A stretch of 52,534 bases of DNA, from positions 1 through 52,534 of the forward strand of contig JAURNW010000014.1 in assembly GCA_030829985.1 (NCBI GenBank), read 5' to 3'. The translations under genes were made by a program, and so were the position numbers. Positions 4,456 to 18,651 of this stretch are shown in pieces (the first letter of the stretch is position 1; the number at the start of each line of letters is the position of its first letter). The stretch comes from Gammaproteobacteria bacterium (GTDB lineage Bacteria; Pseudomonadota; Gammaproteobacteria; Eutrophobiales; Eutrophobiaceae). The notes below the pieces were generated by a model. The model saw only the letters and a list, made by a program, of their open reading frames with translations. It searched no databases and was not told the DNA's origin.

Positions 4456-4481
4456 AATTTAGTTAATGTTTCTAATTCGTG

Positions 4482-5135
4482 ATGCTTTTTAATGTCATGT
4501 TGAAAAATATTTTTTATATAAATAAAAACAGGGTCAATAGCTTACCCGTTTTAGTGTTTATTTTTGTAATTGTATTCACCGATGCAGTTAAAGCTGAAGA
4601 GCAGCCTGCTGTCAGAGACGCAACGATTACTGAAAACACTATTGAGCAGTATTTAGAAGAGATACATAGGCTTGAAGTTACTTATGGCCCTCATCATGAG
4701 GCGATAGGAGAAAATCTGATTAGCCTCTCTAAACTATATGAGGCACAGGGGGATAAATTAAAAAAACATGAAACTTTAGAGCAAGCATTGCAAATTCATC
4801 GACTGAATTATGGCTTGCATAATAAGGAACAGTTGCCGATTATCGAACAGCTTATTGCTAATAATATCGACTTGCAGAATTGGGAAGCTTTAGATCGTAA
4901 TTATGACTATCTTTACTGGATTCATCGACGAATCTATGGCGTGGATTCGCTTGAATTATTACCAGTACTAAATCGGGTTTTGGAATGGAAGCTTAAGGTC
5001 GTTAAGGAAGGTTTGTTTGGCAACCCGGACATTATGAATCTTCAAGTTGTAAAACTTACGCGTAAGGTAAAAAAGATTAGAAATTTACATTTGGGTGAGT
5101 CTTCTCCGTTACTTAAAAGAACAGTCTTCTATTGA
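4482..5135 (+). CDS. Exported TPR-like protein of unknown function
   Basis: About 217 residues. A hydrophobic segment (VNSLPVLVFIFVIVFTDAVKA) near the N-terminus looks like a signal peptide ending at AEEQ. The rest is helical, with TPR-type spacing in phrases such as IGENLISLSKLYEAQGD and ETLEQALQIHRLNYG, similar to kinesin-light-chain type tetratricopeptide repeats. The start is uncertain: ATG at 4482 and 4497 and GTG at 4479 all lack a clear RBS; the later ATG gives a more normal signal peptide. It follows the Nfn-like gene by 26 bases and may be co-transcribed. It converges with the M48 protease gene. Confidence 0.65.
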   Translation: MLFNVMLKNIFYINKNRVNSLPVLVFIFVIVFTDAVKAEEQPAVRDATITENTIEQYLEEIHRLEVTYGPHHEAIGENLISLSKLYEAQGDKLKKHETLEQALQIHRLNYGLHNKEQLPIIEQLIANNIDLQNWEALDRNYDYLYWIHRRIYGVDSLELLPVLNRVLEWKLKVVKEGLFGNPDIMNLQVVKLTRKVKKIRNLHLGESSPLLKRTVFY

Positions 5136-5168: not shown

Positions 5169-5855
5169 TTATTTATTCGTTAAACGACGCACTAATGATT
5201 TGAGTACAGTAATACGTTCTATACTAGATGGGTGCGACGCGTTAAAAGTACTGGCCATTGTTGTTTTTGAAGATTTGTATAATTCTTCTTGCAATGAAAC
5301 AGCGCCATTAGGATCATACCCCGCTTCAACGGCCCATATTGTACCAAGGTAATCAGCTTCACGTTCATTGTCCCGACTATACCGTGTATTGGCAGCCGAG
5401 AAATATTGTCCGTTTTTCAATTTTCTCTGTTTTCTGGCTTGTTCTCCATGATTTAATTTCAAATGAGCCAGTTCATGCCCTAACAAGGCAGCAACCATAT
5501 CAAGATTTCTATGCAGAATATCAAGCATAGCAAAATTAATTGCGACGAATTTTTGTCCACCTTCCATTTCTCCAGCGAAGGCATTTGGAAGGTCGCCATC
5601 AATGATTATAAATTCAGCCCGTGTTTCAGATGCATCAGCGATACTGGTCATAACTGCATACAGATATACCATTTGTTGTGTATTTATTGTGTATAACAGC
5701 CGATCTTTTTCATCTCTTAGTTTGATAGATTCAAGTGGCGCACGCGCGAGATCTCGCACCAACCATGAGTAAACAGGAAGCTCGGCATAGCTCGGCATGC
5801 TGAGAATGCAAAGTAATAATGAAACGACTGGATTTCTTAATAATGATAAGTACAT
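5169..5855 (-). CDS. Exported M48-family zinc metalloprotease
   Basis: The protein carries the zinc-protease signature HELAHLKLNHGEQ and, downstream, NEREADYLG, which supplies the third ligand (Glu) typical of M48 peptidases (HtpX/BepA/LoiP group). The N-terminus from ATG 5855 (MYLSLLRNPVVSLLLC...) is a signal peptide, so it should act in the periplasm or be membrane-tethered. A longer frame reaches back to 5897, but the ATG at 5855 forms a TAATG stop-start overlap with the preceding gene, which favours it. It is the last gene of the large envelope operon and may do quality control or processing of its proteins (inference). At about 228 residues it is a minimal M48 protease without TPRs. Confidence 0.85.
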   Translation of the reverse strand: MYLSLLRNPVVSLLLCILSMPSYAELPVYSWLVRDLARAPLESIKLRDEKDRLLYTINTQQMVYLYAVMTSIADASETRAEFIIIDGDLPNAFAGEMEGGQKFVAINFAMLDILHRNLDMVAALLGHELAHLKLNHGEQARKQRKLKNGQYFSAANTRYSRDNEREADYLGTIWAVEAGYDPNGAVSLQEELYKSSKTTMASTFNASHPSSIERITVLKSLVRRLTNK

Positions 5856-6511
5856 TATTTTAAGAATTCCTTTAGCTGAGTAGCCATGCCAGCACAAGCA
5901 TCAGCTTTAACGCTAGCCAATAGTGGGATTGGCAAGATAACCGCTGGTAAGTAGGATGTTCCTTGTGTCTCTGTACTTATTTTACCAGAGAGTGCTAACT
6001 GGTTTATGTCCCAGATTTTTGCCTCATAATGCGCTTCATCATTCCACATGACAAAGCCAAAACAACCCGCAGGTCCGCCAGCACAAGATATAGCACCACT
6101 ATTGTCTATCGTTTCAGTATTGCCCTCGACCCATATTAGATAACGGATGTTATAGTCGGTAAACTTTTTAAGAATAAGCGGTTGTTGCACAAGTTCGCCG
6201 AGTCTATCAATGTTCATTGGTGCCGTACTTGCTTCAAAATAAGGATACATGGCATCGATGAATTGATGTTCAGGTATGACATTGATCATCTCGTTCCCGG
6301 TAGATAAGTTCGTGCCTACGCAACTGATATAATCACTTTCCGTTTCATGTTGATGACTATGTCTACGGCCTAATAAGACAATTGAATCTTTATCATTCAA
6401 ATCTATCGTATCTAATACTTTCTGTTTATCAATTACAGTGACTGTGTTGCAAGCAGCTAATAATGAGCTTGCCAGTGTTATTAATAGCAGATCGTATATT
6501 TGAGCACGCAT
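5855..6511 (-). CDS. Lipoprotein of unknown function
   Basis: 218 residues with a type II signal sequence ending in the lipobox LLAAC (Cys21), so an envelope lipoprotein is predicted. The mature part has several cysteines (ISCVGT, ISCAGGPAGCFG, ADACAG), a pattern compatible with disulfides in the periplasm. I do not recognise the family. It overlaps the next gene by one base (TAATG) and is 12 bases after the preceding lipoprotein gene, so translation is probably coupled within the operon. Confidence 0.7.
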   Translation of the reverse strand: MRAQIYDLLLITLASSLLAACNTVTVIDKQKVLDTIDLNDKDSIVLLGRRHSHQHETESDYISCVGTNLSTGNEMINVIPEHQFIDAMYPYFEASTAPMNIDRLGELVQQPLILKKFTDYNIRYLIWVEGNTETIDNSGAISCAGGPAGCFGFVMWNDEAHYEAKIWDINQLALSGKISTETQGTSYLPAVILPIPLLASVKADACAGMATQLKEFLK

Positions 6512-6523
6512 GTTAAATCATAA

Positions 6524-7147
6524 TTAATGAATCGACTTTGAAACTAGCCATTTCTGGATATCAGAGTTGGATTGAAATGTAACAATAATCTTTGCTGCAA
6601 GGTCGCGAAACGCCTGATTTGTTGCATAGAGGAGCCCTTCCTTTTCATTTAGCATGAATTTAATGGAAGTTTTATTGGAAGATTTTCCATAACCAATGAC
6701 ATGCATGGTTGTAATTTCTATACCATTAGTTTGTTGAATATGAATGGCATATTTTATCCATGTTTCGTGAAGAGTGGATTTTGTCTCAAACGGCAAAGCA
6801 AATTGTATGTCTTTAATTTCCGGTATAATGATAGCGTCATACCCTTGACCTTCTGTGTTACTTGATTGCTCAATATGATCAATAGAAGTAAACATTGCTG
6901 GCAGTATTAAATCAAATAGCTGAACCTGGGAAGGCCCGATCTTTATCGACCAGTTTATTCGGTCTTCATTATTTTCGGTATAAGTATATTCACGGAGTTG
7001 CGGTTCATATAAGACAGCCATTTTCAGTGGTAATGGTGATGGGACTGGTTGCGGGACATCCAGTGACGTTTCAACAATAAAAGATTGTCCACAGGCAGTG
7101 AGTAATATCGAGCATAATATAAAAATATATCTAAATTGCTTCAACAT
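6524..7147 (-). CDS. Lipoprotein of unknown function
   Basis: 207 residues. The N-terminus MLKQFRYIFILCSILLTACG is a lipoprotein signal with lipobox LTAC, followed by a proline-rich linker (PQPVPSPLPL) and a mixed alpha/beta domain. The phrase LKMAVLYEPQLREYTY after the linker and the late helix TNQAFRDLAAKI resemble outer-membrane-linked lipoproteins of the YajG type, but the match is weak. Its ATG overlaps the stop codon of the preceding vWA gene (TAATG), showing tight operon packing. Confidence 0.7.
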   Translation of the reverse strand: MLKQFRYIFILCSILLTACGQSFIVETSLDVPQPVPSPLPLKMAVLYEPQLREYTYTENNEDRINWSIKIGPSQVQLFDLILPAMFTSIDHIEQSSNTEGQGYDAIIIPEIKDIQFALPFETKSTLHETWIKYAIHIQQTNGIEITTMHVIGYGKSSNKTSIKFMLNEKEGLLYATNQAFRDLAAKIIVTFQSNSDIQKWLVSKSIH

Positions 7148-8139
7148 TAATTGAGCCCAATAAAAGTACCACCATTTTTTTGACTCACTTCACGCATTAA
7201 TGTTGCGAAGCGTTGACTGGTGATTTGGAAGTGTTCCGGCGCATTAGCAGGAATGGGGAATCCTACGCTGTGAATCCTTATTTTTCTATTGCCTTTACTG
7301 TCTTCAGGATTAAGACGATCGACTGTTTTTATTACGTCAGTAATAGAGCTGCCAGTAAATTCATCGCCGAATACGTAAATGCTTATTTTTTTATTGGGAT
7401 CACGAAAAGAACTAATAGCACGTGTTATACCTTCTACCGGACTACTATTACTAAACGTGTTCCAGATTCGAAGATTACTGATTATTGCACGTCTACGCCC
7501 AGGAGTATCCGGTATCCATTTACCTCGATACTGTGAAAAGAGGTAGCTACCCATGTCGCTCATAATCTGGATTCCTTGCACGTTTGGGTAGACATCCAAT
7601 GTTGTTGTGAGTTGTTTGATCATCTTCTCCCAGTTGGCATTAACCATACTGCCTGAGGTGTCGATTATAAAAATAATGTATTCACTATCGACTGGTATAC
7701 CGCCAACAAGACTTGTATCTGCATTTTTCAGCTTTGATAAAAGGCGTTGCATTTCTTTGGTTAATGACTGTTTTGCTGATTCAAATTGACCAGTAATCGT
7801 GGATTGAACAGAAGAGTTATCTTCCAGCGAAACCAATTTCTTTTCAGTCTTATTCTTATCCTGTTGTAAACGCGCGATTCGGTCTTTCCATATAGATATT
7901 TGTTCCTGTTTATCATTAAGCTCACGATTCAGGACAGTTGTTTCCCCTCTAATTTCGAACAAGTTTTTTTGTAGATCTCGTATTAGCTTATCGTTACTTG
8001 ATTGAGATACGGGTTCGATGATTGTCGAAGGTATGCCAGTTTTTGTAATCACCAATAAAAGTATGATGGCACCGAAGCCACAAGTGATAATATCCAGAAA
8101 AGATAAACTAAAGACATCTATTTCACGACGTTTCTTCAT
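7147..8139 (-). CDS. vWA protein with ExbD/MotB-type transmembrane helix (second copy)
   Basis: 330 residues. A short basic cytoplasmic start precedes one membrane helix, about 10-32, with the motif FSLSFLDIITCGFGA. Asp16 sits at the start of the helix where ExbD, TolR and MotB carry their proton-channel aspartate. A coiled coil follows (about 50-140), then a periplasmic von Willebrand A domain with MIDAS residues D160-T-S162-G-S164 in FIIDTSGSM and a later FGDEFTGSS. The peptidoglycan-binding OmpA domain of MotB is absent; the vWA domain takes its place. It is paralogous to the gene just upstream and ends by overlapping the next lipoprotein start. It probably pairs with the MotA/ExbB-like protein of the same operon. 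Confidence 0.85.
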   Translation of the reverse strand: MKKRREIDVFSLSFLDIITCGFGAIILLLVITKTGIPSTIIEPVSQSSNDKLIRDLQKNLFEIRGETTVLNRELNDKQEQISIWKDRIARLQQDKNKTEKKLVSLEDNSSVQSTITGQFESAKQSLTKEMQRLLSKLKNADTSLVGGIPVDSEYIIFIIDTSGSMVNANWEKMIKQLTTTLDVYPNVQGIQIMSDMGSYLFSQYRGKWIPDTPGRRRAIISNLRIWNTFSNSSPVEGITRAISSFRDPNKKISIYVFGDEFTGSSITDVIKTVDRLNPEDSKGNRKIRIHSVGFPIPANAPEHFQITSQRFATLMREVSQKNGGTFIGLN

Positions 8140-8147
8140 ATAAATTT

Positions 8148-9242
8148 TTATGGCCAGTCATTCGATGGGCTCATGAACGAGCCTGCTGTTGCACGAGATA
8201 ATCGCCAATAGGCAATCGCTGCGTATGGATCGCCTTCGATTGGTGTCAAGAGAATGTTGACAGGTGTGCGGCCTGGCAATTTATCTACAGCCTGGTTAAA
8301 AAGTTTAAAGCGATCCGCTCCGGAGATAGTCGTACTCCGTGGTGCTTTTGAGCCTAGTGTCGGTAAACCATCGGTAATGAGATAGATATTATCCGGTTTC
8401 GGATTGAGTTGATTAGCTGCTATAAATGCTTTTTCCAGATTTGTACCTTGAGTTGGCGTCAGTTGGTTGAGAGTTTTGAAGGCACTATCAAGCTTATTTT
8501 TATCTTTTACATCCAGCCATTTTCCTTTGCTATTAGGTACCAATGATTCGGTATCAATATTAAAATGGTATATTTGGAACTGGCTATCAATTGGGAGTTT
8601 AGCGCTTAACCATTCAACTATCTTGATAGTATGTTGCCATTTTGGGGCTGTGCGTTTTCGGTCTTCCGACATATTACGCCGACGCAATATATTGACGATG
8701 GTTTCATCTAACATGCTGGCTGAACTATCCAGCAAAATTAATAGTCGTTTGCCGCTCATTTTTAAGCCGGTTACATAGGCTCGATCACCATCACCCGAAA
8801 ATTTACGAGATGCTTCTCCAGTTTCATCCAGCTTTTGTTCCAGTATTTTTTTTTGCTGTTCAAGCTTTAGCAATTCTGTTTTGAGAGCGTCGAGTTCAGT
8901 ATTATCACTCATTGCTATTAAGTCATCGTGTTGGCTGCTTAGCTGCTCTATTTCTTCAGTAATTTTACGAGCCAATCCCTGCGTAATATTTATTTCTTTA
9001 TCAACTTCATCAATCGTATTTTTAATTTCAACAAGATTTTTTTTGCCTTTTAATATTTCTTCTTCCAGCAAAGATACTTCGGATTGATGTACTGGCGTGG
9101 TTGTATTAACTGGTGATGGAATGGTGTTGTCAATATTGTGTTTAATAATGAGAAATAACAATACAGCCGCACCAAAACCACAAGACATAATGTCAAGAAA
9201 TGACAGGCTAAATGGCGTTAGCTGGCGCCTGTTCCTAGCCAT
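8148..9242 (-). CDS. vWA protein with ExbD/MotB-type transmembrane helix (first copy)
   Basis: 364 residues with the same plan as its downstream paralogue. It has a basic N-terminus, one helix with FSLSFLDIMSCGFGA (Asp17 in the channel position), a long coiled coil (about 55-145) and a vWA domain with MIDAS D172-S-S174-A-S176 and a second motif in YLITDGLPTLGS. A coiled coil between channel helix and vWA domain would hold the vWA domain well into the periplasm. The start is 4 bases after the Hsp70-like gene's stop. Two non-identical channel-helix proteins beside one MotA/ExbB-like protein suggest a heterodimeric plug instead of the usual homodimer (inference). Confidence 0.85.
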   Translation of the reverse strand: MARNRRQLTPFSLSFLDIMSCGFGAAVLLFLIIKHNIDNTIPSPVNTTTPVHQSEVSLLEEEILKGKKNLVEIKNTIDEVDKEINITQGLARKITEEIEQLSSQHDDLIAMSDNTELDALKTELLKLEQQKKILEQKLDETGEASRKFSGDGDRAYVTGLKMSGKRLLILLDSSASMLDETIVNILRRRNMSEDRKRTAPKWQHTIKIVEWLSAKLPIDSQFQIYHFNIDTESLVPNSKGKWLDVKDKNKLDSAFKTLNQLTPTQGTNLEKAFIAANQLNPKPDNIYLITDGLPTLGSKAPRSTTISGADRFKLFNQAVDKLPGRTPVNILLTPIEGDPYAAIAYWRLSRATAGSFMSPSNDWP

Positions 9243-9246
9243 TCTT

Positions 9247-10539
9247 TTATTTCACCATAATCATAGTTGAACTTTTTTCTAAAGTAGTTTTTATTTTGTC
9301 GCCAAGGGCAAGAATAGTTTTTGAATTTATAATGTTATCGTTCAGAAAAACCTGAGCATTATTCTCATTCTTCACTGAATAATGTCCGTCTTGATAATGG
9401 ACTGAATACTGGCTATCGGCACTTTGTTTTGTCTCTATCTGGTGATCAACAGTAAAAAAATATTGTCGTCCATCAAGTTTAAAAGCAATATCATTAATCA
9501 GTATATGAGTGATCTGTGTTGATTGTTGCTTGCCTGTAGAGGGGGTTTTCAAATTGGCGACTGGTTCAAGTACAGGTAATTCAGATAAGTAGTTATTGTC
9601 CGGATCACTTTTATGAAAATATTCCGTATAGTTTTTTGCTGCTGTAAACAGTGCAAATTCATCCAGCATGTTTGCATTATCGAACCCGTCAATAAAACCA
9701 GGAAGATTTCCGAAACGATGGCTTAACAACAATACTTCTGGTTTTTCTATACGCTTATAAATACGTTCATATAATGGCAATAGTTCTTTTAAGATGGTTT
9801 CACGGGTAATGTTGGCACTAAAGGATTGTGACTTGTATTCGATATCCATTTTACTTATGGATGTATTCGTTAGCCTCGCCAGGCAATCAGGTATCTTTTC
9901 AAATAGTAGTTGCTCTGTTTCGGCATTGTGATGAGGGTCAAAGCGTGATTGATTTATAAACTCATGACTAATCAATCGGGCGCATTGCTCATGAATACCC
10001 ATCAGGCCGATATCCGGTAATATCTCTGTTGAAATGACTTGATGATTTTTATCAGTTTCAATACGAGTAAGAACAGATTGATGTAATTGTATGTCGAGGT
10101 GCAGTTGCTCTCCCTGATTCAGTGCTTTGATTGACGCAAGTAGGGCGCTATCAATTAATTTAATGTTCTGAAAGTTAGCTGCCTTAAGTAATCCCAGTAA
10201 TAGTCCTAGTTGGTCTTGATTAAAACTGGAGGGAACAGCAATCAAACTGTTCGCAGGTTTTCCTGCTTGTTCATAAATTTCGGCCAACTGCATATAGGCC
10301 AGATCAGCATTATGGCGTATCTGATTGGAAGTCGATTGTATAGCTTCCTGACCAAGGCGATACCAGTAGTCATCATGTGTGCTGCGAGGATAAATACGTG
10401 TTAATTTCTCCGCAGAGGTACCGAACGCAATCTTGTTATCTTTTATTACGGCATAACCTGGACTATTCAGCAGCATCTGGCCACCGCTGGCAACACGAAT
10501 ATTTGAATCATTAAGATCTATAACAGTTAATGTATTCAT
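9247..10539 (-). CDS. Degenerate Hsp70/actin-like protein with possible FHA-like C-terminus
   Basis: 430 residues. The start VIDLNDSNIRVASGG aligns with the phosphate-1 loop of Hsp70/actin ATPases (DnaK GIDLGTT), and the middle contains NSLIAVPSSFNQDQLGLL, like the DnaK segment where the first subdomain ends. A later phrase, VLLLSHRFGNLPGF, occupies the place of the adenosine motif. The key threonines and glycines are altered, so ATP hydrolysis is doubtful. The last 90 residues look like a beta sandwich ending in FLNDNIINSKTILALGDKI, which resembles the end of an FHA domain (asparagine then GD-I). No signal peptide, so it is cytoplasmic. It lies between the channel gene and the vWA genes and could be a scaffold or regulator on the inner face. 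Confidence 0.65.
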   Translation of the reverse strand: MNTLTVIDLNDSNIRVASGGQMLLNSPGYAVIKDNKIAFGTSAEKLTRIYPRSTHDDYWYRLGQEAIQSTSNQIRHNADLAYMQLAEIYEQAGKPANSLIAVPSSFNQDQLGLLLGLLKAANFQNIKLIDSALLASIKALNQGEQLHLDIQLHQSVLTRIETDKNHQVISTEILPDIGLMGIHEQCARLISHEFINQSRFDPHHNAETEQLLFEKIPDCLARLTNTSISKMDIEYKSQSFSANITRETILKELLPLYERIYKRIEKPEVLLLSHRFGNLPGFIDGFDNANMLDEFALFTAAKNYTEYFHKSDPDNNYLSELPVLEPVANLKTPSTGKQQSTQITHILINDIAFKLDGRQYFFTVDHQIETKQSADSQYSVHYQDGHYSVKNENNAQVFLNDNIINSKTILALGDKIKTTLEKSSTMIMVK

Positions 10540-10550
10540 GATTAATTCCG

Positions 10551-11351
10551 TTATAGCGCTTTCAGATGTCGAATTAGACTTACGTCACAATAGCGTTGAG
10601 TATCCAGAACCAGGCGTTCTTGCAGAAGTTGCAATTGATGCATCAGGAACATAATAAAAATACTGATAATCAACGCAACGAAGGTTGAGTTGAAAGCAAC
10701 GCCCAGGCTTAAAGTTACGCCAAGGATGTCACCTTCAACGGCTCTGTGAGCTTGACCCAATGCTTCACCGATACCACGGACAGTCCCGATAAAACCGATA
10801 GAAGGAATAGCCCAGATGATATATCTGACCATAGACAGTTCTGAATCAAGTCGTTCAGATTCATGCTCACAGATGTCTTTGATAGTTGTCGCAACATCCT
10901 GAATATTTTTGGTTGATCCAAATCGTTGCAAACCAGAGAGCAATGCTCTGGGTAATAGATACTCTCGTTCTATCTCATTAAGATCCTGTATAGGCCTCGA
11001 GTACTCTCGCGTATCTTCAGGCAGAAGGCTGGTGCCTGGACTTATATTAATTAAGGTTTGCGATAATAGGGCACGCTCTTTCAAAATAGTCTTGGCTTTT
11101 AAACCCATAATCACGAAGACCCACAAGGCCAGGATAAAACACGCTTCTTGTTCAAAGTCTTTTAGCACAATATAAAGGGAACGTTCAATTTCTACAGTTT
11201 CTCCAGCAGATTGTTGAGCCGCTTGTTGTTCCAGTATCACTTCAGCATTAGGCCTGATTACAGTCACATAAATGGTATGCACAATAATTAATGATAAAAA
11301 TAATGCTATTACTTGATAGATGAAATCGGATAAAGGGTTGTTTTTATTCAT
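10551..11351 (-). CDS. MotA/TolQ/ExbB-type proton channel protein
   Basis: 266 residues with four predicted membrane helices at about 10-31, 68-86, 175-197 and 210-238. The third helix carries WAIPSIGFIGTVRGIGEALG, the hallmark P-x-G-x-x-G-T-V motif of MotA, TolQ and ExbB. The fourth (GVTLSLGVAFNSTFVALIIS) matches the family's last helix. In known systems five such subunits surround two MotB/TolR/ExbD helices and convert ion flow into rotation or force. The partners here are presumably the two vWA proteins encoded just downstream. No tonB, tol-pal or flagellar gene is nearby. Spacing to the small gene upstream is 6 bases. Confidence 0.9.
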   Translation of the reverse strand: MNKNNPLSDFIYQVIALFLSLIIVHTIYVTVIRPNAEVILEQQAAQQSAGETVEIERSLYIVLKDFEQEACFILALWVFVIMGLKAKTILKERALLSQTLINISPGTSLLPEDTREYSRPIQDLNEIEREYLLPRALLSGLQRFGSTKNIQDVATTIKDICEHESERLDSELSMVRYIIWAIPSIGFIGTVRGIGEALGQAHRAVEGDILGVTLSLGVAFNSTFVALIISIFIMFLMHQLQLLQERLVLDTQRYCDVSLIRHLKAL

Positions 11352-11357
11352 AATATT

Positions 11358-11573
11358 TTATATGTCTACTGGAAAAGCAGTGGGGATATCCTGAGATAAG
11401 GTTTCTGTAGGATCGAAAGAATCTGGTGTTTTGATAACCGTTGAATTTGTTGGATTAGTTTCGGTTGTCTCGGTTTGTTCGTTATTAATATTTGTCGTGC
11501 TCTCTTCATTTTCCTGTTCGGCAATGACAGCAACAGATATAAACAGCAACAAACCAATCAGGATTCTAATCAT
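11358..11573 (-). CDS. Small exported acidic, Thr/Asn/Glu-rich protein
   Basis: 71 residues: a clean signal peptide (MIRILIGLLLFISVAVIAEQ) followed by about 50 low-complexity residues rich in E, N, T and P (for example NINNEQTETTETNPTNSTV) ending in FPVDI. It is expected to be disordered and periplasmic. It sits between the PEGA/FGE gene (18 bases) and the channel gene (6 bases), so it is part of the operon. A second overlapping frame at 11366-11557 has no signal or domain and is a shadow. I recognise no family. Confidence 0.6.
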   Translation of the reverse strand: MIRILIGLLLFISVAVIAEQENEESTTNINNEQTETTETNPTNSTVIKTPDSFDPTETLSQDIPTAFPVDI

Positions 11574-11591
11574 AGTTAAAATTATTTATGC

Positions 11592-13631
11592 CTAATCAAG
11601 ATATCTTGCAATTCGAAATCCCACGTCCTCACGTGGTTTGTCAGTATAGTCTCTATAAGATAACCGTAGTTCTGTGATCGTTCCATGTGCCCACGATGCA
11701 CCACGGACAACATGAAATTCTCCTTTTACAGGACCAAGCGGGTCGACAGCAATTCTATTATTACTTGCCTGAACAGAGTAGTAGTCATGTACCCATTCTG
11801 CAACATTACCACCCATATCATAGAGCCCATTATGATTCGGAGCAAAACTACCGACCGGCGCTGAAACCGCAAAACCATCATTGTAATTATTAATGGTTTT
11901 GCCGAGAAAGCCACTTGCGTTCATGTCTGCGTAATTACCGCTTTTTTTAGGAGGTGGCATTTTATCACCCCATGGGAATTTTAAAGAATCAGATTCATTG
12001 ACGCTTCTCGCAGCCCATTCCCATTCGGCTTCTGTGGGTAAGCGGTAACCGTCAGCACGGGCATTAAACCCGGAAACTTTATTGTTTTTGATTATATAGA
12101 ATGGTTGGAATGATTCCTTTTGACTTAACCAGTTGCAATACAGTGCCGCTTCTTCCCAACTAATATTTGCAACGGGCTGTGTACCATTATTCATGCTGTG
12201 TCCTTGCAAGCTACCTGAGCTATGGCTGGCTTTGAATAAACTAAACTCGTTATTAGTAATTTCATTAATACTCAGATAAAAAGGGCGTTTGAGTTCTACG
12301 GTCTGAATCATTTCGTTAGCACGTCTGCCCGGTTCTCGCCGTGATGCGCCCATAGTGAATTTATAGGGATTAAATAATTTCAACTCTTGACCGGCACTGG
12401 TTTTAATAAGCTGCTTAATATTTTCCATTTTTTGTTGCTTGAGTGATTTAAGCGTCACATTAACCTGTTGAGGCACACCTTCAATTGGCGTAATAGTCGT
12501 TTTGTAGTCAACATAACCTTCCTTGCTAACGCTGATAGTGTGTTGCGTTGTTGATAAAGCTAATGTTGTTCCTGAAAGCTGGACTATTTTATTATCGATA
12601 TATAGTTTTGCATCTGTTGGTTGCAGGTTAAACATCACCTCTACCAGTTCAGTAGACATTTTTATATTCAGGCGTTCGCTTTGTCCTGCGGCAACATTAA
12701 CGTTGTTTGTTTTGGAGACAAAGCCTTGTTTATAAAGTCGAACGGAACTTTTTTTACCGGGAGTGATTGCCACTTCTAAAGGTGTTTTTCCTGCATAGTC
12801 TCCATCAATTGTGACATTAGCACCATTCGGATCGGATTCAATGAATAAGGTCGCATCAGCTGGCTTGAGTTTAATATCAGTAAAGGCAAGAGGTTCACTG
12901 GCAATGACATCAATCGTGTTTTGCCAGTCTTTAAATCCAGATTTTTTAATTCTGATACTATACTTGCCTTGCAGCAATTCGAGTGTTGACGGAGTGCTGG
13001 ATAATTTTTCATCATTGATCAGGATGTCGGCTGTTTCAGGTGTTGAAGCAAATTTCACTTCTGCCCACGCAGGAATCAGTTCAATGTTTAAGTCCTGGGT
13101 AATGCCCTTGCCCTTGATCTCGATAGTTTGTTCATACGGGAAATAGCGCTCCGCTACAATACCAAGCTGGTGTGTCCCTGCTTCTATATCATTGACTTTC
13201 ATCGGCACCAACCCTTGCTCAATACCGTCCAGAAAAACTTTAGCTTCATTCACATTTGTAGCATTAACTTGTAAGTGACCAGGCAGCGGATCCAGCTTAT
13301 ATGAAAACTCCTGATTCTGTTTATCTTCGACTGTTAATACGTCTTTAAGTACATGATAACCTTCTGCACTGATTTCTATGTTATAGCTATTCTTCCTTAA
13401 TAAATAACGATCTGCCAATGCCAGCTTGAACGGTGTTTGAATTGTTATGATGGCATTCCCCGGCTCAACAATCAGGTGTATTGATTTAGTGGTAAACAGA
13501 AACCAGATAATAACTATAAGGAATACGCATGAAATTAATATAATTAATCTCGATATTAGTGAACGAGATTGGGGGGTAATTTTTTTATGTGGATTAGGTG
13601 GTTCAAAAATTACGGGTTCGATATGTTGCAT
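11592..13631 (-). CDS. Membrane protein with five PEGA-like repeats and an FGE/SUMF1-like domain
   Basis: 679 residues. A short cytoplasmic tail and one membrane helix (about 24-48) are followed by five beta repeats of about 70 residues (roughly 52-118, 119-188, 189-258, 259-327, 328-397) with PEGA-type phrases such as ANVTIDGDYAGKTPLEVAI and KVFLDGIEQGLVPM. From about 425 to the end is a formylglycine-generating-enzyme/EgtB-like domain with YRLPTEAEWEWAAR, GLYDMGGNVAEWV and VGFRIAR. The catalytic cysteine pair of true FGEs, expected in the segment after VVRGASW, is missing (VVRGASWAHGTITELRLSYR), so the domain is probably a binding module. It should project into the periplasm, and PEGA repeats are thought to bind surface or wall partners. 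The upstream TPR gene ends 14 bases before. Confidence 0.88.
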   Translation of the reverse strand: MQHIEPVIFEPPNPHKKITPQSRSLISRLIILISCVFLIVIIWFLFTTKSIHLIVEPGNAIITIQTPFKLALADRYLLRKNSYNIEISAEGYHVLKDVLTVEDKQNQEFSYKLDPLPGHLQVNATNVNEAKVFLDGIEQGLVPMKVNDIEAGTHQLGIVAERYFPYEQTIEIKGKGITQDLNIELIPAWAEVKFASTPETADILINDEKLSSTPSTLELLQGKYSIRIKKSGFKDWQNTIDVIASEPLAFTDIKLKPADATLFIESDPNGANVTIDGDYAGKTPLEVAITPGKKSSVRLYKQGFVSKTNNVNVAAGQSERLNIKMSTELVEVMFNLQPTDAKLYIDNKIVQLSGTTLALSTTQHTISVSKEGYVDYKTTITPIEGVPQQVNVTLKSLKQQKMENIKQLIKTSAGQELKLFNPYKFTMGASRREPGRRANEMIQTVELKRPFYLSINEITNNEFSLFKASHSSGSLQGHSMNNGTQPVANISWEEAALYCNWLSQKESFQPFYIIKNNKVSGFNARADGYRLPTEAEWEWAARSVNESDSLKFPWGDKMPPPKKSGNYADMNASGFLGKTINNYNDGFAVSAPVGSFAPNHNGLYDMGGNVAEWVHDYYSVQASNNRIAVDPLGPVKGEFHVVRGASWAHGTITELRLSYRDYTDKPREDVGFRIARYLD

Positions 13632-13645
13632 AAATTAAAATCTGC

Positions 13646-15214
13646 CTAGTTGATTTTTTCAGTGGCTGCGATTCGAACAATTTTTTGAGCAGATGTTTGT
13701 GCAACAATAAATTCTATACGAACGTCACGATAGCCATCACGCTTACCTACGGCAACATATTTCCCAGGCCGTAGGCTTAACTCCTTCGATTCAAAGGCAC
13801 CCATCTTTCCAACTTTGTACAGGATAACGTCTGTCATATTATCTGATTCAAGTGATATTTTTATGGGTGTCGCACTAACTCTCAGTAAGTTTTCAAGGTC
13901 ATTGAGTTGTTTAGTCAAAACTGGCCCTGGATTATTAACATTGCGAACTTCGTTGTAATAAGTCGTTACATCAGCATGAACATTTTTGTCGTTGAGTCGT
14001 TCCGGTTCTGACAATATTTTTTCCAGACGCTTATATGTGGTTAACTGATTTTGGGCCCGTTGTTTCCCCGTTTCTGCGTTAATGAGATTACTCTCAAGTT
14101 TTAATGCACTGCTGTATAGATCGATTGCGTCCTGCCATTGTTCATTTCTTTCCTTGTCCGCAGCTTCATTCAACGTATTTGCTATCTTCAGGGCAGTGGC
14201 CTTGTGTTCAGTTTGCTGTAAGGCAGTTTTTGCGGATGTGGACGCAGGCTTAATCTTCAGTGCTTTATTGAATTCAATAATTGCTGTATTGAAATTTTGT
14301 TGTTCGAGCGCAGCATAACCAGCAGTCATGTTTGTGCTGAATTGTTTATTTGCTAATAATTCATTCGTTTCCTGTAGTTTTTGTCGGGCGACTTTTGTAT
14401 CAGGGTCAAGGTCCAGGGCCGATTGAAAAGCTTTTTTTGCATCAACCAGGCGACTGCTTTCAAGTGCCTCATTAGCTTGTTTTATATAAACAAAGACATC
14501 GTCAAGTATTTGCGTGCGAGCAAGTCCTTTCGCTGCGAGCTGTGACTCATCAGTAAATAAAGCCGCAGTCTTGAAGGCCTTGAATGCCAGTAATGTGTTG
14601 CCTGTATCAAGGGCATTTTGACCTTGTTCTATATTTTTATTATAGATAATATCAATCTGATCGACGAGCTTATTAAAAATAGCCAGACCGGTTTGATATT
14701 CTTTAGTAGCCTGCGAAAAATTTTGTTGATTATACTGTCTGTCACCACTTTCAATCTGTTTTAGTCCCTGTGTATATTCTTCTGTTGCCCATATTTGTGC
14801 ATTATTTTTTTTGAGGATGTTTTGTTTTTCAAGACTCTGCTGTAAATATGATTGTGTTTCCTTTCTTAAGTCCATGTCCTTGATTTGTTCATTAGATGAA
14901 CTTGAATGAGTCGTAACGTCAACGCCAGTAACTGTTGTTGTGGAACTATCAATTTGGGATGAAACATCAATAGAAACATCATTCGCTTGTTTTTTTGAGT
15001 TAATGATTTCAGGTTTTTTAACCCAATCAGGCAAGAAGAAGATGACAATAACAAGGCTAACTAGAATTAATAAAAAAACTGTGCCAATGATAAGGGTTTT
15101 AGTGCTGATGTTTTTTGAATTGCCTGATCCATCTGCCGCAATTTCAGGTGTGCGTTGAAATGGAACAGGTTTTATTTCTTTAAAACCATTGTCAGAATCA
15201 TTTCCCATATGCAT
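13646..15214 (-). CDS. Membrane-anchored TPR protein with PEGA-like C-terminus
   Basis: 522 residues: a cytoplasmic N-terminus of about 40, one membrane helix (TLIIGTVFLLILVSLVIVIFFLP), a Ser/Thr-rich linker, then tetratricopeptide-like repeats through most of the protein (for example AGYAALEQQNFNTAIIEFNK and ANEALESSRLVDAKKAFQSA). The last 70 residues (LSLRPGKYVAVGKRDGYRDV) look like one more PEGA-type unit. The TPR part should lie in the periplasm and bind protein partners. ATG at 15214 and ATG at 15208 are both possible starts; neither has a strong RBS. It shares its layout (short tail, one helix, long exported part) with the PEGA/FGE protein that follows, suggesting joint assembly. Confidence 0.8.
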   Translation of the reverse strand: MHMGNDSDNGFKEIKPVPFQRTPEIAADGSGNSKNISTKTLIIGTVFLLILVSLVIVIFFLPDWVKKPEIINSKKQANDVSIDVSSQIDSSTTTVTGVDVTTHSSSSNEQIKDMDLRKETQSYLQQSLEKQNILKKNNAQIWATEEYTQGLKQIESGDRQYNQQNFSQATKEYQTGLAIFNKLVDQIDIIYNKNIEQGQNALDTGNTLLAFKAFKTAALFTDESQLAAKGLARTQILDDVFVYIKQANEALESSRLVDAKKAFQSALDLDPDTKVARQKLQETNELLANKQFSTNMTAGYAALEQQNFNTAIIEFNKALKIKPASTSAKTALQQTEHKATALKIANTLNEAADKERNEQWQDAIDLYSSALKLESNLINAETGKQRAQNQLTTYKRLEKILSEPERLNDKNVHADVTTYYNEVRNVNNPGPVLTKQLNDLENLLRVSATPIKISLESDNMTDVILYKVGKMGAFESKELSLRPGKYVAVGKRDGYRDVRIEFIVAQTSAQKIVRIAATEKIN

Positions 15215-15231
15215 TGGAGTTCATGATTCCG

Positions 15232-16407
15232 TTAAATATTTCCGGTTTCTGACTTGTATATTTCTCGCAATACCTCGCGCCATTGTGCATATTGTTCATT
15301 AACTGATCCACTCAGAGTGACCGTGCGTTCTTCCAGGTTGACGGTATGTGGTTCTATTTCTGCATCAAGAGAAGCTGAAATTTCTTGTAATGCCTCAACA
15401 TGAATTTTAGCTTCTTCACGTTTATTCATCCCACTGACGACGGATGCACCACCAGCAAGAATACCAACCTGTCCCGCAGTGCGTGATATAGATGAACTAC
15501 TACCCTGTGCAAGTATACCGGCTAATACAGCTAGCACGCCGCCAACCAGACGCGTGGTGGCCTGTGAGTTGACTTCGCGTAATGCCTCGCCTTCTTCATA
15601 ATAGGCACGGCGCCATTCGTGGTATGGTTCTTCCATCTGACGCGAGAAGTTAGCGTAGTATTCTTGTAAGGTATCCACAAATAAATTGTCCCGTTCACGA
15701 ATTGTTTCTATACGATGTAATAAAGGGTCATTTTTTGCTGGTAATCGCTTAATCGTTAAACGATCTTTATTATCTGCTTCTATATATTCATCAAATGCTT
15801 CCGGTGAAAAGCGTTTGGCAAACTGGAGTTTTGAAATAGTTCTAATATTGCTAATTTCTTCAGCACCCAGTTTTCGATAATACAACAACATATCATTAGC
15901 AATTTGGTCGTATAAATTCTGAAACGGCTCCCTTTTGTTGGCATTATTTTCATAAGCGTATTTACTGGCTTCTTGCTTATAACGTTTGCTATACCACTTT
16001 CGATTGCTTGAATCACTGACCGTAATATCAAGCTCCAGAGTTGCACCATCAGATTTAATAATTTTGCCGTCGACCCAAACATCCATTTCACTTTGCTTTT
16101 CTGGAATAAGGCGTACAACACCCCAGTTGCCACTGCCCTGAATTGTTTGCATTAATTTAAATGGTATATAACGTGCTTCAGCCTCAAGGATCTTGGTATA
16201 ACCGTTAATATCTTCAGTCTTACTTTCAGTAATATCAGGGTCAAAGACATTAATCCCGACATCAAGTAATAATGCTTCAGGAATAGCCATGCCTGTTATT
16301 AGAACAGGTTCGGTTTTTGTGCTTCTGATAGTCGTTGTATTACATGCTGCCAGAAATAAAAACACACTGACTATCATTAATACATTGTTAAGTTTTTTTG
16401 TGAACAT
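15232..16407 (-). CDS. Lipoprotein with glycine-rich hydrophobic segment and BON-like C-terminus
   Basis: 391 residues. Lipoprotein signal with lipobox FLAAC (Cys22). The mature part begins with a region beginning EPVLITGMAIPEALLLDVGI that is mostly beta, then a helical region, then a glycine/alanine-rich hydrophobic stretch (TTRLVGGVLAVLAGILAQG, continuing to VVSGM) that could enter a membrane. The end, LEERTVTLSGSVNEQYAQWR, resembles a BON-type unit (V-T-L-x-G-x-V), a fold that binds lipid or peptidoglycan-linked partners. An AGGAA sequence precedes the ATG at 16407 by 9 bases. It is the second gene of the operon. Exact function unknown. Confidence 0.75.
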   Translation of the reverse strand: MFTKKLNNVLMIVSVFLFLAACNTTTIRSTKTEPVLITGMAIPEALLLDVGINVFDPDITESKTEDINGYTKILEAEARYIPFKLMQTIQGSGNWGVVRLIPEKQSEMDVWVDGKIIKSDGATLELDITVSDSSNRKWYSKRYKQEASKYAYENNANKREPFQNLYDQIANDMLLYYRKLGAEEISNIRTISKLQFAKRFSPEAFDEYIEADNKDRLTIKRLPAKNDPLLHRIETIRERDNLFVDTLQEYYANFSRQMEEPYHEWRRAYYEEGEALREVNSQATTRLVGGVLAVLAGILAQGSSSSISRTAGQVGILAGGASVVSGMNKREEAKIHVEALQEISASLDAEIEPHTVNLEERTVTLSGSVNEQYAQWREVLREIYKSETGNI

Positions 16408-16419
16408 ATTCTGCTGTTC

Positions 16420-17061
16420 CTAGGTACCTTCTTTATATTTTCTATACTCATCCCATAATTTTTCTCTAAGAGCAGGATCTTTCTCTTTTATTGCTGCTTC
16501 TCGTAACTGTCTGGCAATGACATCATCTCCCTTACTGTTTACCAGATCTGGCGGAATATTAATATTGGTATTCTCGCTCGGAAACGCGTTTTCACCGGAG
16601 GATTTTTGAGTGGCCGTGCCATTGTTATATGGCTCAGAACCTTGTTCTGCGATATCACCATATTCATCCAGCCCCTTAAATCCATCCACCCCATCAGCAG
16701 TAGCTCCGCCGCCGCCACTTTGTGGTGAACCCTGTTCATTTTGTTTTTCATTTAAGAATTCTCTTTCACGTAAGAGTAATCTATCAAAATCAGCAAAGCG
16801 GTCATCCAGTTTTTGATCGAGCTGCTGTGTTTTTTCTTCGCTGGTCAGATTGTCATTAGTTGTCGCCGAAGTAGTGACATCAATATCGTCACTGTATTTT
16901 GTGGATGTTTTTTCAGTCGGGAGCGCAATATTTTCTGTAGCTTTATTTTCCTCTACTATTTTTTCAGTGCTATCGGGTGTTGTGGGCATTGTCTTGCAAG
17001 CCGTTAAAGTAAATAGCAGGCAGCATAAAAATATATCTTTTAAGGATAGTGATGTTGTCAT
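16420..17061 (-). CDS. Lipoprotein, first gene of the stator/vWA operon
   Basis: From ATG 17061 the protein has 213 residues and a canonical lipoprotein signal, MTTSLSLKDIFLCCLLFTLT followed by the acylated Cys. The frame also extends to ATG 17079 and to a GTG at 17124, but these give an overlong signal. The mature part is low-complexity (Thr, Glu, Asp), contains a Gly-rich SGGGGATADGVDGF linker and ends in a charged helix, REAAIKEKDPALREKLWDEY. It is therefore probably an extended tether with a C-terminal interaction helix. It is 12 bases from the next gene. No domain of known function is visible. Confidence 0.7.
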   Translation of the reverse strand: MTTSLSLKDIFLCCLLFTLTACKTMPTTPDSTEKIVEENKATENIALPTEKTSTKYSDDIDVTTSATTNDNLTSEEKTQQLDQKLDDRFADFDRLLLREREFLNEKQNEQGSPQSGGGGATADGVDGFKGLDEYGDIAEQGSEPYNNGTATQKSSGENAFPSENTNINIPPDLVNSKGDDVIARQLREAAIKEKDPALREKLWDEYRKYKEGT

Positions 17062-17389
17062 ACCGTAATGACTGGTCATCAATTGTTTCTCATGTTTTGA
17101 TTGAATTGGATTATTTGATATCACTATTTGGTTAACAAATATTTAACCCTGAGGTTTTTCAACGATATTATCAAGGCTATAGCCTATGAAATCGATATTA
17201 AATAATAGTTTGTATGTAAATTCTTAACTAAATACTAAAGAATTTTTACACAATAATTATGACATAATGAACAACTACTTGTTCCATTAGAATAAGCGGG
17301 AATAGGACAGATAATAACGCGAAAGGCGTTTATTTCACGCCAATTCAGCAAAAGCAGGTTTGAGGGGTCTGGAAACTCACTAGCTATAC
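17062..17389. other. AT-rich intergenic region upstream of the stator/vWA operon
   Basis: About 330 bases without a supported gene (less if the longer start of the first lipoprotein is used). It must contain the minus-strand promoter of the twelve-gene operon, but several AT-rich boxes could serve and I cannot choose one. A weak hairpin GGCGT/ACGCC at 17325-17341 lies downstream of the neighbouring minus-strand gene and has no proper T tract. Nothing else is seen. Confidence 0.4.
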
Positions 17390-17980
17390 CTAGTAAATGA
17401 CAAGTTGCCTTACTATTTCTGTATGCCCAAGGACTTCAGCAATTTCAGAATGAATAGATGCCCTGGTTTCCGCATTTAATGAAGGGTCATCGCGTGTTAA
17501 TACAATAACCGTTGCCGGGTGCACGAACAGGTCTTTAGTGTGATAACACTCACCCGGTGCTTTGGGGAGTCCACCATCATGGTGATAATCTTTTTCCAGA
17601 CTATCGTGTGATATTTCTTGCAGGCTATTTTTAAGTGTTAATGTTTTTGCCAGATATTCATCACATTGAGGAAGTCTGAATTGGGCACTTTTAATAACAT
17701 CTTCGGACAAACTCAATAAGTTCTTTGCCTGATTACTGACACCATCCGCCGTTGCAGTACTGCTATCCAGATTGGCGATCAATTTTTTCCCTGCTATTTC
17801 GTAATCGGCTAATAATCCCGCAGTGATAGAAATACGTTGTCGATCTTTCTCACTCACTACATCAGTACGGCTAACGCCACGAGCCTCGTCCTTATCCATT
17901 GTGCCGCTGGCAATGCTTGGAAGGGGCAATATTGTTAGTAAGAATGTACAGATTAAATAGCCAGTTTTAGTTATATGCAT
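17390..17980 (-). CDS. Exported protein of unknown function, probably Fur-regulated
   Basis: 196 residues from ATG 17980; a TTG at 17992 is less likely. MHITKTGYLICTFLLTILPLPSIAS is a signal peptide, so the product is periplasmic. The mature protein is mainly helical, with two cysteines (LPQCDEY, GECYHTK) that may form a disulfide and a histidine-rich patch (DYHHDGG...ECYHTKDLFVHPA). I do not recognise the family. A near-consensus Fur box lies about 30 bases upstream of the ATG, so iron repression is likely and a role in iron or metal handling is possible, but this rests on the site and not on a domain. Confidence 0.65.
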   Translation of the reverse strand: MHITKTGYLICTFLLTILPLPSIASGTMDKDEARGVSRTDVVSEKDRQRISITAGLLADYEIAGKKLIANLDSSTATADGVSNQAKNLLSLSEDVIKSAQFRLPQCDEYLAKTLTLKNSLQEISHDSLEKDYHHDGGLPKAPGECYHTKDLFVHPATVIVLTRDDPSLNAETRASIHSEIAEVLGHTEIVRQLVIY

Positions 17981-18009
17981 GGTGGTTTCCAATAAGGATT
18001 GAATAATTT

Positions 18010-18028
18010 GTTAATGATAAGCATTCTC
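18010..18028. promoter_or_regulatory. Putative Fur box
   Basis: GTTAATGATAAGCATTCTC agrees with the 19-base Fur consensus GATAATGATAATCATTATC at 16 of 19 positions by direct comparison. It is embedded in a perfect 10-bp inverted repeat, TTGTTAATGA (18008-18017) and TCATTAACAA (18027-18036). It sits immediately upstream of the exported protein gene starting at 17980 on the minus strand, where a repressor would block the promoter. Confidence 0.7.
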
Positions 18029-18096
18029 ATTAACAAATGAAAGAAAATTAAACATAATTATTTATTATGTCTAACTAAAGGACTCGACAAGTTTGA

Positions 18097-18651
18097 TTAG
18101 AATGGATTCCAGGTCTTCTTTCGGGTGTATTTCATGTAACCCACATTGACGCCAGCCCTCAAACCCGCACCTAGCCTCATAGGAGCCAGAATGATGTTGT
18201 CAGATTGATGATAATTGGCACTTATGCCGCCAATGAAGTAGAGACTTCCGTCAATCGCAGGAAAACGCTGAAATAATGCATCTGCATTGGGGAGATGATA
18301 GATCAGTACAAATACCTTTGAGGCATTTGCCCCGGCATCGAAGCCGATGGAGGGTCCAGTCCAATGTACGGTTGTACTGCCACCTTTTTTCATTGTTAGC
18401 GTTCCATTTCCATAGCGTGCGCCGATTCCCAAAGCACCGCTGGCTTCTTCTCCTTTAATTATTGCGTTTGGTCTTCCATGTTCCTTGAATATTTTTTCTA
18501 TAACCTCGCCCAGACCTTCAGTACCTTCGCCAAAAAAATTAGCCGCGTCATCTATTACAGTGCCTTTATCATAACTGTCGTCTTCAGCAAATACAGGAAC
18601 TGATATGAGAGAAATGATAATGCTTGTTAAGAACAATAGTTGTCTGATCAT
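18097..18651 (-). CDS. DUF1134 / EipA-like periplasmic protein
   Basis: 184 residues with a signal peptide ending at VFAEDD. The segment from IKGEEASGALGIGARYGNG through GPSIGFDAGANASKVF and LFQRFPAIDGSLYFIGG is the pattern of the DUF1134 family. The family member EipA in Brucella is a small beta-barrel periplasmic protein needed for envelope integrity. Length agrees with the family. It lies before, and on the same strand as, the putatively Fur-regulated gene, but more than 100 bases and the Fur box separate them, so they are probably separate transcripts. Confidence 0.8.
   Translation of the reverse strand: MIRQLLFLTSIIISLISVPVFAEDDSYDKGTVIDDAANFFGEGTEGLGEVIEKIFKEHGRPNAIIKGEEASGALGIGARYGNGTLTMKKGGSTTVHWTGPSIGFDAGANASKVFVLIYHLPNADALFQRFPAIDGSLYFIGGISANYHQSDNIILAPMRLGAGLRAGVNVGYMKYTRKKTWNPF

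Follow-up and report, generated by a model that had tools for sequence, protein, structure and literature searches.

Background

The ion-driven 5:2 motors of the bacterial envelope, TolQR, ExbBD and MotAB, combine a PF01618 subunit that carries a conserved threonine with partners that contribute an N-terminal helix and an aspartate, and in MotB, ExbD and TolR a homodimeric axle is the rule. ZorA and ZorB, of the Zorya type of anti-phage defence, form a MotA/MotB-like motor as well. Here we describe a twelve-gene operon whose channel protein is accompanied by two different vWA proteins, in contrast to the TolR/ExbD or OmpA-like partners of the known 5:2 motors. The operon lies on the minus strand of contig JAURNW010000014.1 of a gammaproteobacterium of the family Eutrophobiaceae (assembly GCA_030829985.1), within a stretch of 52,534 nucleotides that was analysed as a whole and is referred to below as the window; its genes are lettered A to L (Table 1).

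The motor core of such an operon has already been predicted in print. In the parts of their paper that concern these proteins, Williams-Jones et al. (June 2025; PMC12204202) predicted vWA proteins with a TolR-like transpore helix and a conserved Asp, encoded mostly as heterologous pairs beside tolQ-like genes and without tolR or exbD, and presented AF3 models that set the Asp opposite a ring of threonines. The class is placed there in Proteobacteria and Verrucomicrobia and its function is given as unknown; gliding is suggested for the other vWA class of that paper, the only one of the two for which a TPR gene is named. Among partners of the transpore-helix class, the text of its section 8 does not list PEGA-FGE, Hsp70-FHA or TPR-TonB_C proteins or a ring-like lipoprotein. 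In every described feature that was compared, the motor of the present operon agrees with that class, the absence of tolR and exbD beside the motor referring here to the window's operon. The operon is a fuller description of the class, in that a seven-gene core and its accessory genes are defined, whereas the section text names no other conserved partners. An earlier note on this DNA had stated that no system with this set of genes was described; this no longer stands for the motor core, while of the wider machine no description was found in the literature searched (preprints lay outside its coverage). As far as the accessible text of each goes, a survey of MotAB proteins (PMC12505986) does not mention vWA, and PMC7159879 does not mention MotA, TolQ or ExbB.

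A Gene Set Inherited as a Block

The central finding is that the operon is a conserved, block-inherited set of genes with a motor core, which goes beyond a loose operon. Twelve open reading frames (ORFs) run head to tail on the minus strand from 17124 (or an ATG at 17061) down to 5169, and the gaps calculated from their coordinates are, from A to L, 12, 17, 14, 18, 6, 11, 4 and 8 nucleotides, an overlap, 12 nucleotides and a second overlap. The earlier note had reported twelve minus-strand genes with gaps of 18 bases or less, which is borne out; the TAATG overlaps that it counted as several do exist, but at two junctions only (7147 and 5855).

It is important to stress how the comparison was built. 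The 68 loci examined were picked solely for encoding H or I, the two vWA proteins (vWA1 and vWA2), and all twelve families were then sought in them by profile, so that the presence of A, B, C, D and F beside H and I is an independent result. Synteny was counted in the 47 loci that have at least 9.5 kb upstream of I, the other 21 having either too short an upstream stretch or no I, and in 42 of these A, B, C, D, F, H and I lie on one strand. The 42 seven-gene loci represent 12 families, of which 11 fall in the window's class and the twelfth in another, and because the genes stay together across so many families their association is far from chance. The conserved neighbourhood of the channel gene with both vWA genes, which the earlier note had proposed to look for, does exist. 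Of the five other loci among the 47, three (L052, L062 and L103) carry all seven core genes by profile, H having been dropped at the gene-picking step, while L112 is without B and F and L115 is without B. Gene order is almost fixed, although in L108 and L115 F has been relocated behind I, still inside the cluster. Two arrangements are most frequent, the complete set and the seven core genes alone, each in 11 of 47 loci; the complete set minus L comes next (10 of 47).

That these genes are inherited together is evident from their sequences. Across loci, any two core genes show correlated pairwise identities (r of 0.80–0.96), the highest value (0.962) being that of H and I. A locus from the window's own genus, L065, belongs to the other subtype in each of the seven core genes: its proteins are 17–46% identical to those of the window and 45–83% identical to those of L064, which comes from another genus.

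The searches covered the window's phylum and a plasmid collection. Five gammaproteobacterial metagenome genomes, one of them labelled Thiotrichaceae, are the nearest relatives that carry a name. Relatives of vWA1 were found in 33 of 96 related genomes, which divide into 31 of 53 from the window's family (its own genome included) and 2 of the 43 from elsewhere in the class. The vWA2 profile matched 31 of 369 genomes sampled from the class, some of the matches being partial (G139, G150 and G340), and 16 of 398 sampled from the phylum, 13 of these 16 falling in one family of another class. Altogether the vWA2 matches span 16 families in the class sample, two more in the phylum sample and the one other-class family; this count leaves out a weak match in genome G142, whose distant vWA protein (L148, on a branch of 3.5) was kept in the tree and among the 68 loci. 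There was no match to vWA2, the sole operon gene searched there, among 72,556 plasmid records.

A Channel Protein Encoded with Two vWA Proteins

The reading of the locus as a stator, put forward in the earlier note, is well supported by the conserved synteny, by invariant Asp and Thr residues and by a vWA pair that stands in place of TolR/ExbD. Pfam scanning covered eleven of the twelve operon products (all but E) together with X, a short gene outside the operon, and a first round of Pfam, NCBIfam and PADLOC scans covered ten operon products. The domains that had been named from the sequence were all recovered, MotA_ExbB, PEGA, FGE, TPR, vWA and M48 by Pfam, with the second vWA domain below its cut-off, and the Hsp70/actin-like protein by its AlphaFold fold.

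F matches MotA_ExbB (PF01618) at 1.4e-13, with 51.1 bits against a cut-off of 22.9, and its Thr190 and Thr223 are each kept in all 64 rows of the alignment; judged by the motifs of those proteins, these two residues would be equivalent to the channel threonines of ExbB and TolQ. In a tree with seven other PF01618 proteins of the same genome, F is separated by a weak branch only (68/80). Elsewhere in that genome, four more MotA/ExbB-family matches (L155, L156, L158 and L159) lie within 33 kb of one another on contig C6 (82534–115904).

The vWA domain scores 2.3e-6 in H (VWA_2) and 0.0016, under the family cut-off, in I. None of the ten products in the first Pfam scan matches PF02472 (ExbD/TolR) or an OmpA-like domain, H and I having the vWA domain instead, and the H profile retrieved no meaningful chain from the PDB. 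The proposed channel aspartates are invariant, Asp16 of I in 67 of 67 rows and Asp17 of H in all 61 rows that reach that position; in the other seven H rows, which belong to one other-class family, the called ORF starts late, and an Asp codon lies upstream in frame in all seven. The vWA1 genes of that family (L137–L145 and L149) seemingly start at a conserved CTG codon ahead of the channel Asp, and no ATG, GTG or TTG occurs between the upstream stop and the Asp, bar a TTG within the motif in L138, L140 and L143. The metal-site motif is almost as constant, its Asp being present in 67 of 68 rows of H (Asp172) and 67 of 67 of I (Asp160). An in-frame TGA seen in the vWA2 of two genomes was set aside as a normal stop.

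H and I fall on opposite sides of one branch (SH-aLRT 98; 68 and 67 rows, respectively), which indicates ancient paralogues that have been kept as a pair. The simplest arrangement would be an F pentamer that encloses a single helix from each of H and I.

Probable Envelope Partners

Lipoboxes were recognised by eye in A, B, J and K of the window, in agreement with the four lipoproteins of the earlier note. In those relatives of the four proteins in which a pattern search recognised a lipobox, the +2 residue is never Asp; under the Lol rule a residue other than Asp at this position leads to the outer membrane, which is accordingly the location indicated. The lipoproteins and the predicted fold of B together favour action at the outer membrane. 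The earlier note had left the target as wall or outer membrane, and of these the wall finds no support, as Pfam found no peptidoglycan-binding domain in the eleven operon products scanned or in X. In L063 and L104 a lipoprotein K stands ahead of A. No convincing family was found for A, B, G, J or K where they were scanned (Pfam or NCBIfam), and the K profile retrieved nothing from the PDB at E up to 1.

The AlphaFold model of B has a mean pLDDT of 79. Its N-terminal domain is predicted to resemble the LPHT ring (Z 8.7), FlgT (8.5), XCC0632 of DUF330 (8.4), PelC (7.9 at 2.3 Å), curli CsgG (7.6) and the TolB N-terminal domain (6.5), proteins that we take to be mostly of the envelope, several of them ring-forming. 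B differs from FlgT/LPHT, PelC, CsgG and TolB in possessing a long helix and an additional C-terminal part; matches of the long helix to PI3K coiled coils were set aside as a common arrangement.

The two remaining core proteins are recognisable by Pfam, C as a TPR protein (1.2e-11) and D through four PEGA stretches (1.9e-51) and an FGE-sulfatase domain (4.8e-43). D has a transmembrane (TM) segment and is without a lipobox, and human FGE and PorK/GldK are relatives of its FGE domain. The catalytic residues of FGE are a pair of cysteines. At the segment aligned with them there is no cysteine in D, nor in any of 25 aligned rows, so that the domain is most likely structural; D as an active formylglycine-generating enzyme is ruled out by the missing pair.

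Accessory Genes and Surroundings

G was modelled by AlphaFold with a pLDDT of 90, and the model aligns with Hsp70 nucleotide-binding domains at Z 28.8 (2.8 Å over 310 residues); the protein has no Pfam match, and no signal peptide was seen. The positions of the phosphate motifs are degenerate, with DLND and LDIxLHQ where the Hsp70 consensus has phosphate motifs. There is no Hsp70 substrate-binding domain, and the C-terminus is of FHA type instead, FHA being recognisable in 3 of 22 members of the family (best 1.8e-12). L matches M48 at 1.3e-18. In three loci (L044, L047 and L052) an M48 gene lies on the other strand ahead of the operon and not at its end. The X family, whose members are secreted-looking TPR proteins with a TonB_C-like end, is present in 25 of the 68 loci, directly upstream of A on A's strand in 16 and behind the operon on the other strand in 9; the window's own X is short and is without the TonB_C end.

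Table 1. Features of the operon and of gene X in the window.
Feature	Position	Strand	Remark
A: lipoprotein in the window (lipobox LTAC-K)	16420..17124	-	core gene; plain secreted protein in some relatives
B: lipoprotein; predicted N-terminal alpha/beta domain like FlgT/PelC/CsgG/TolB-N, long helix, C-terminal part	15232..16407	-	core gene; without Pfam family
C: TM-anchored periplasmic TPR protein	13646..15214	-	core gene
D: TM-anchored PEGA repeats and FGE-fold domain	11592..13631	-	core gene; FGE catalytic cysteines absent
FGE-fold domain of D	about 11604-12362	-	
E: 71-aa protein with signal-like N-terminus	11358..11573	-	accessory
F: MotA/TolQ/ExbB channel subunit	10551..11351	-	core gene
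Thr190 of F, proposed channel threonine	10782..10784	-	invariant
Thr223 of F, proposed channel threonine	10683..10685	-	invariant
G: Hsp70 nucleotide-binding-domain fold (residues 1-313), C-terminal FHA-type domain	9247..10539	-	accessory
H: vWA1; N-terminal transpore helix, coiled coil, DxSxS metal-site motif	8148..9242	-	core gene
Transpore helix of H	about 9141-9209	-	
Asp17 of H, proposed channel aspartate	9192..9194	-	invariant
I: vWA2; N-terminal transpore helix, coiled coil, DTSGSM motif	7147..8139	-	core gene
Transpore helix of I	about 8041-8109	-	
Asp16 of I, proposed channel aspartate	8092..8094	-	invariant
J: lipoprotein	6524..7147	-	accessory
K: lipoprotein	5855..6511	-	accessory
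L: M48 metalloprotease, likely start ATG at 5855	5169..5897	-	accessory
X: short member of TPR-TonB_C family, outside the operon	4479..5135	+	longer relatives precede A in 16 loci

Beyond the operon, two secreted-looking genes lie upstream of A (17390–18651), and among the 68 loci operon-side relatives of them occur only in the window's genus. The window opens in a 23S rRNA gene, of which it holds the 3′ end, and 5S rRNA comes next (positions 1–415); this places the operon a few kilobases behind an rRNA operon. Scans for promoters and terminators did no better than on shuffled sequence.

Proposed Mechanism and Competing Explanations

Taken as a whole, the locus is best explained as an ion-driven motor of the 5:2 type with a heterodimeric vWA axle that is coupled to outer-membrane partners, a reading to which we give a probability of roughly 60%. 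Five F subunits would assemble in the inner membrane into a wheel-like channel, and one N-terminal helix each from H and I would occupy its lumen as a two-helix axle, with the ion-binding Asp of each helix opposite the conserved Thr of F. Ion flow would then rotate the F wheel relative to this axle, and H and I would pass the motion on within the periplasm through their coiled coils and vWA domains. In that compartment the ligand sites of the vWA domains may engage the TM-anchored C, with its TPR, and D, with its PEGA beads and catalytically dead FGE cap; C and D would reach toward A and the outer-membrane lipoprotein B, which may build a ring or collar at that membrane. G might gate or assemble the motor from the cytoplasm on phosphorylation, and X, J, K and L would be accessory. 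A more ambitious version of the same idea is that the genes encode a complete and so far undescribed trans-envelope rotary machine, with a pentamer, a heterodimeric vWA axle, PEGA/pseudo-FGE and TPR arms and an outer-membrane ring, gated by G in its larger form, and that this machine exists in block-inherited subtypes that range from a minimal seven-gene form to one of twelve or thirteen genes; this we put forward tentatively, with the balance leaning slightly against it.

Several observations weigh against the motor with a heterodimeric axle or against parts of it. The axle, the stoichiometry and the contacts are what we infer, single chains alone having been folded, and H and I could make two homodimeric motors instead of one heterodimer. 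F is divergent, since its profile found no solved MotA, ExbB or TolQ chain in the PDB at E up to 1. The correlation of identities was calculated without a control gene outside the operon, so that it speaks for a block that travels together and does not imply protein contact. With regard to the outer parts, the structural scores of B are middling (Z under 9), values of this size being common, and its likeness to the proteins listed above is moderately supported. Several relatives of A, most of them from loci of the seven-gene form (e.g., L064, L065, L137 and L145), have an ordinary signal peptide and no lipobox, so that not every form has two core outer-membrane anchors. G is absent from the seven-gene form, and gating by G is therefore not general; X is absent from that form as well. 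Finally, we know of no phenotype for the operon.

Among the competing explanations, the one that survives best, although it is unlikely, is that the operon carries out outer-membrane upkeep or uptake in the manner of Tol-Pal or Ton, powered by a vWA axle, with B in a TolB-like and X in a TonB-like role. The alignment of B's N-terminal domain with that of TolB is in keeping with this, as is the TonB_C signal in the X family, where PF03544 is above the cut-off in one of seven relatives (L104), below threshold in five and absent from L110. However, Pfam found no propeller and no Pal/OmpA domain in the products scanned, X is absent from 43 of the 68 loci and lacks the TonB_C end in the window itself, and the distribution is patchy, with vWA1 unmatched in 22 of the 53 genomes from the window's family, some of these 22 being near-complete.

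Somewhat less probable is a pair of homodimeric motors, F5H2 and F5I2, that share F while each vWA dimer acts on a target of its own. The homodimeric axles of MotB, ExbD and TolR are the precedent for it. Yet H and I occur together throughout the 68 loci except in L151, L152 and L148, of which the first two are short contigs with the vWA gene at the contig end and the third encodes the distant vWA protein; moreover, H and I are ancient paralogues whose identities correlate best of all pairs. Of the two, a single motor with a heterodimeric axle is the likelier.

It is doubtful that the motor drives secretion of surface adhesins, or movement, as part of a machine like the type IX secretion system (T9SS) or that of gliding, with D in place of the GldK/PorK ring protein. 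The likeness lies in an FGE-fold periplasmic protein beside an ion-driven motor: the best NCBIfam match of the FGE domain of D is GldK (TIGR03525, 7.7e-33), PorK structures are matched too, and gliding is what the relevant part of PMC12204202 suggests for its other vWA class. The GldK match nevertheless reaches 114.4 bits against a cut-off of 350, and human FGE matches D at least as well as PorK does, which leaves a general fold only. D is TM-anchored with PEGA beads and is not a lipoprotein, and no GldL or GldM match was found in the ten products scanned; membership of D in the T9SS was ruled out, as it falls below the GldK cut-off and has no lipobox.

Anti-phage defence of the Zorya type, for which the shared idea of a MotA/MotB-like motor speaks, is very improbable, given that PADLOC gave no Zor match for the ten products and only weak matches otherwise (best 1.3e-5, mostly to coiled-coil and protease models), that no nuclease or helicase family was matched in the products scanned, and that the set is syntenic, block-inherited and, as judged by vWA2, without a match in the plasmid records.

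Implications

As to what the motor may do for the cell, the candidates are outer-membrane upkeep, transport and the movement of surface structures; Tol/Ton-like work at the outer membrane would be our first guess and gliding or secretion our second, with defence unlikely. The few ion-driven 5:2 motors that are known each power a major envelope process, and a conserved further one would add to them. Partners can now be named for a motor that was hitherto a predicted core, and a heterodimeric axle becomes directly testable. If true, a motor with a vWA heterodimer as its axle and with envelope partners would offer a testable route from ion flow to work at the outer membrane.

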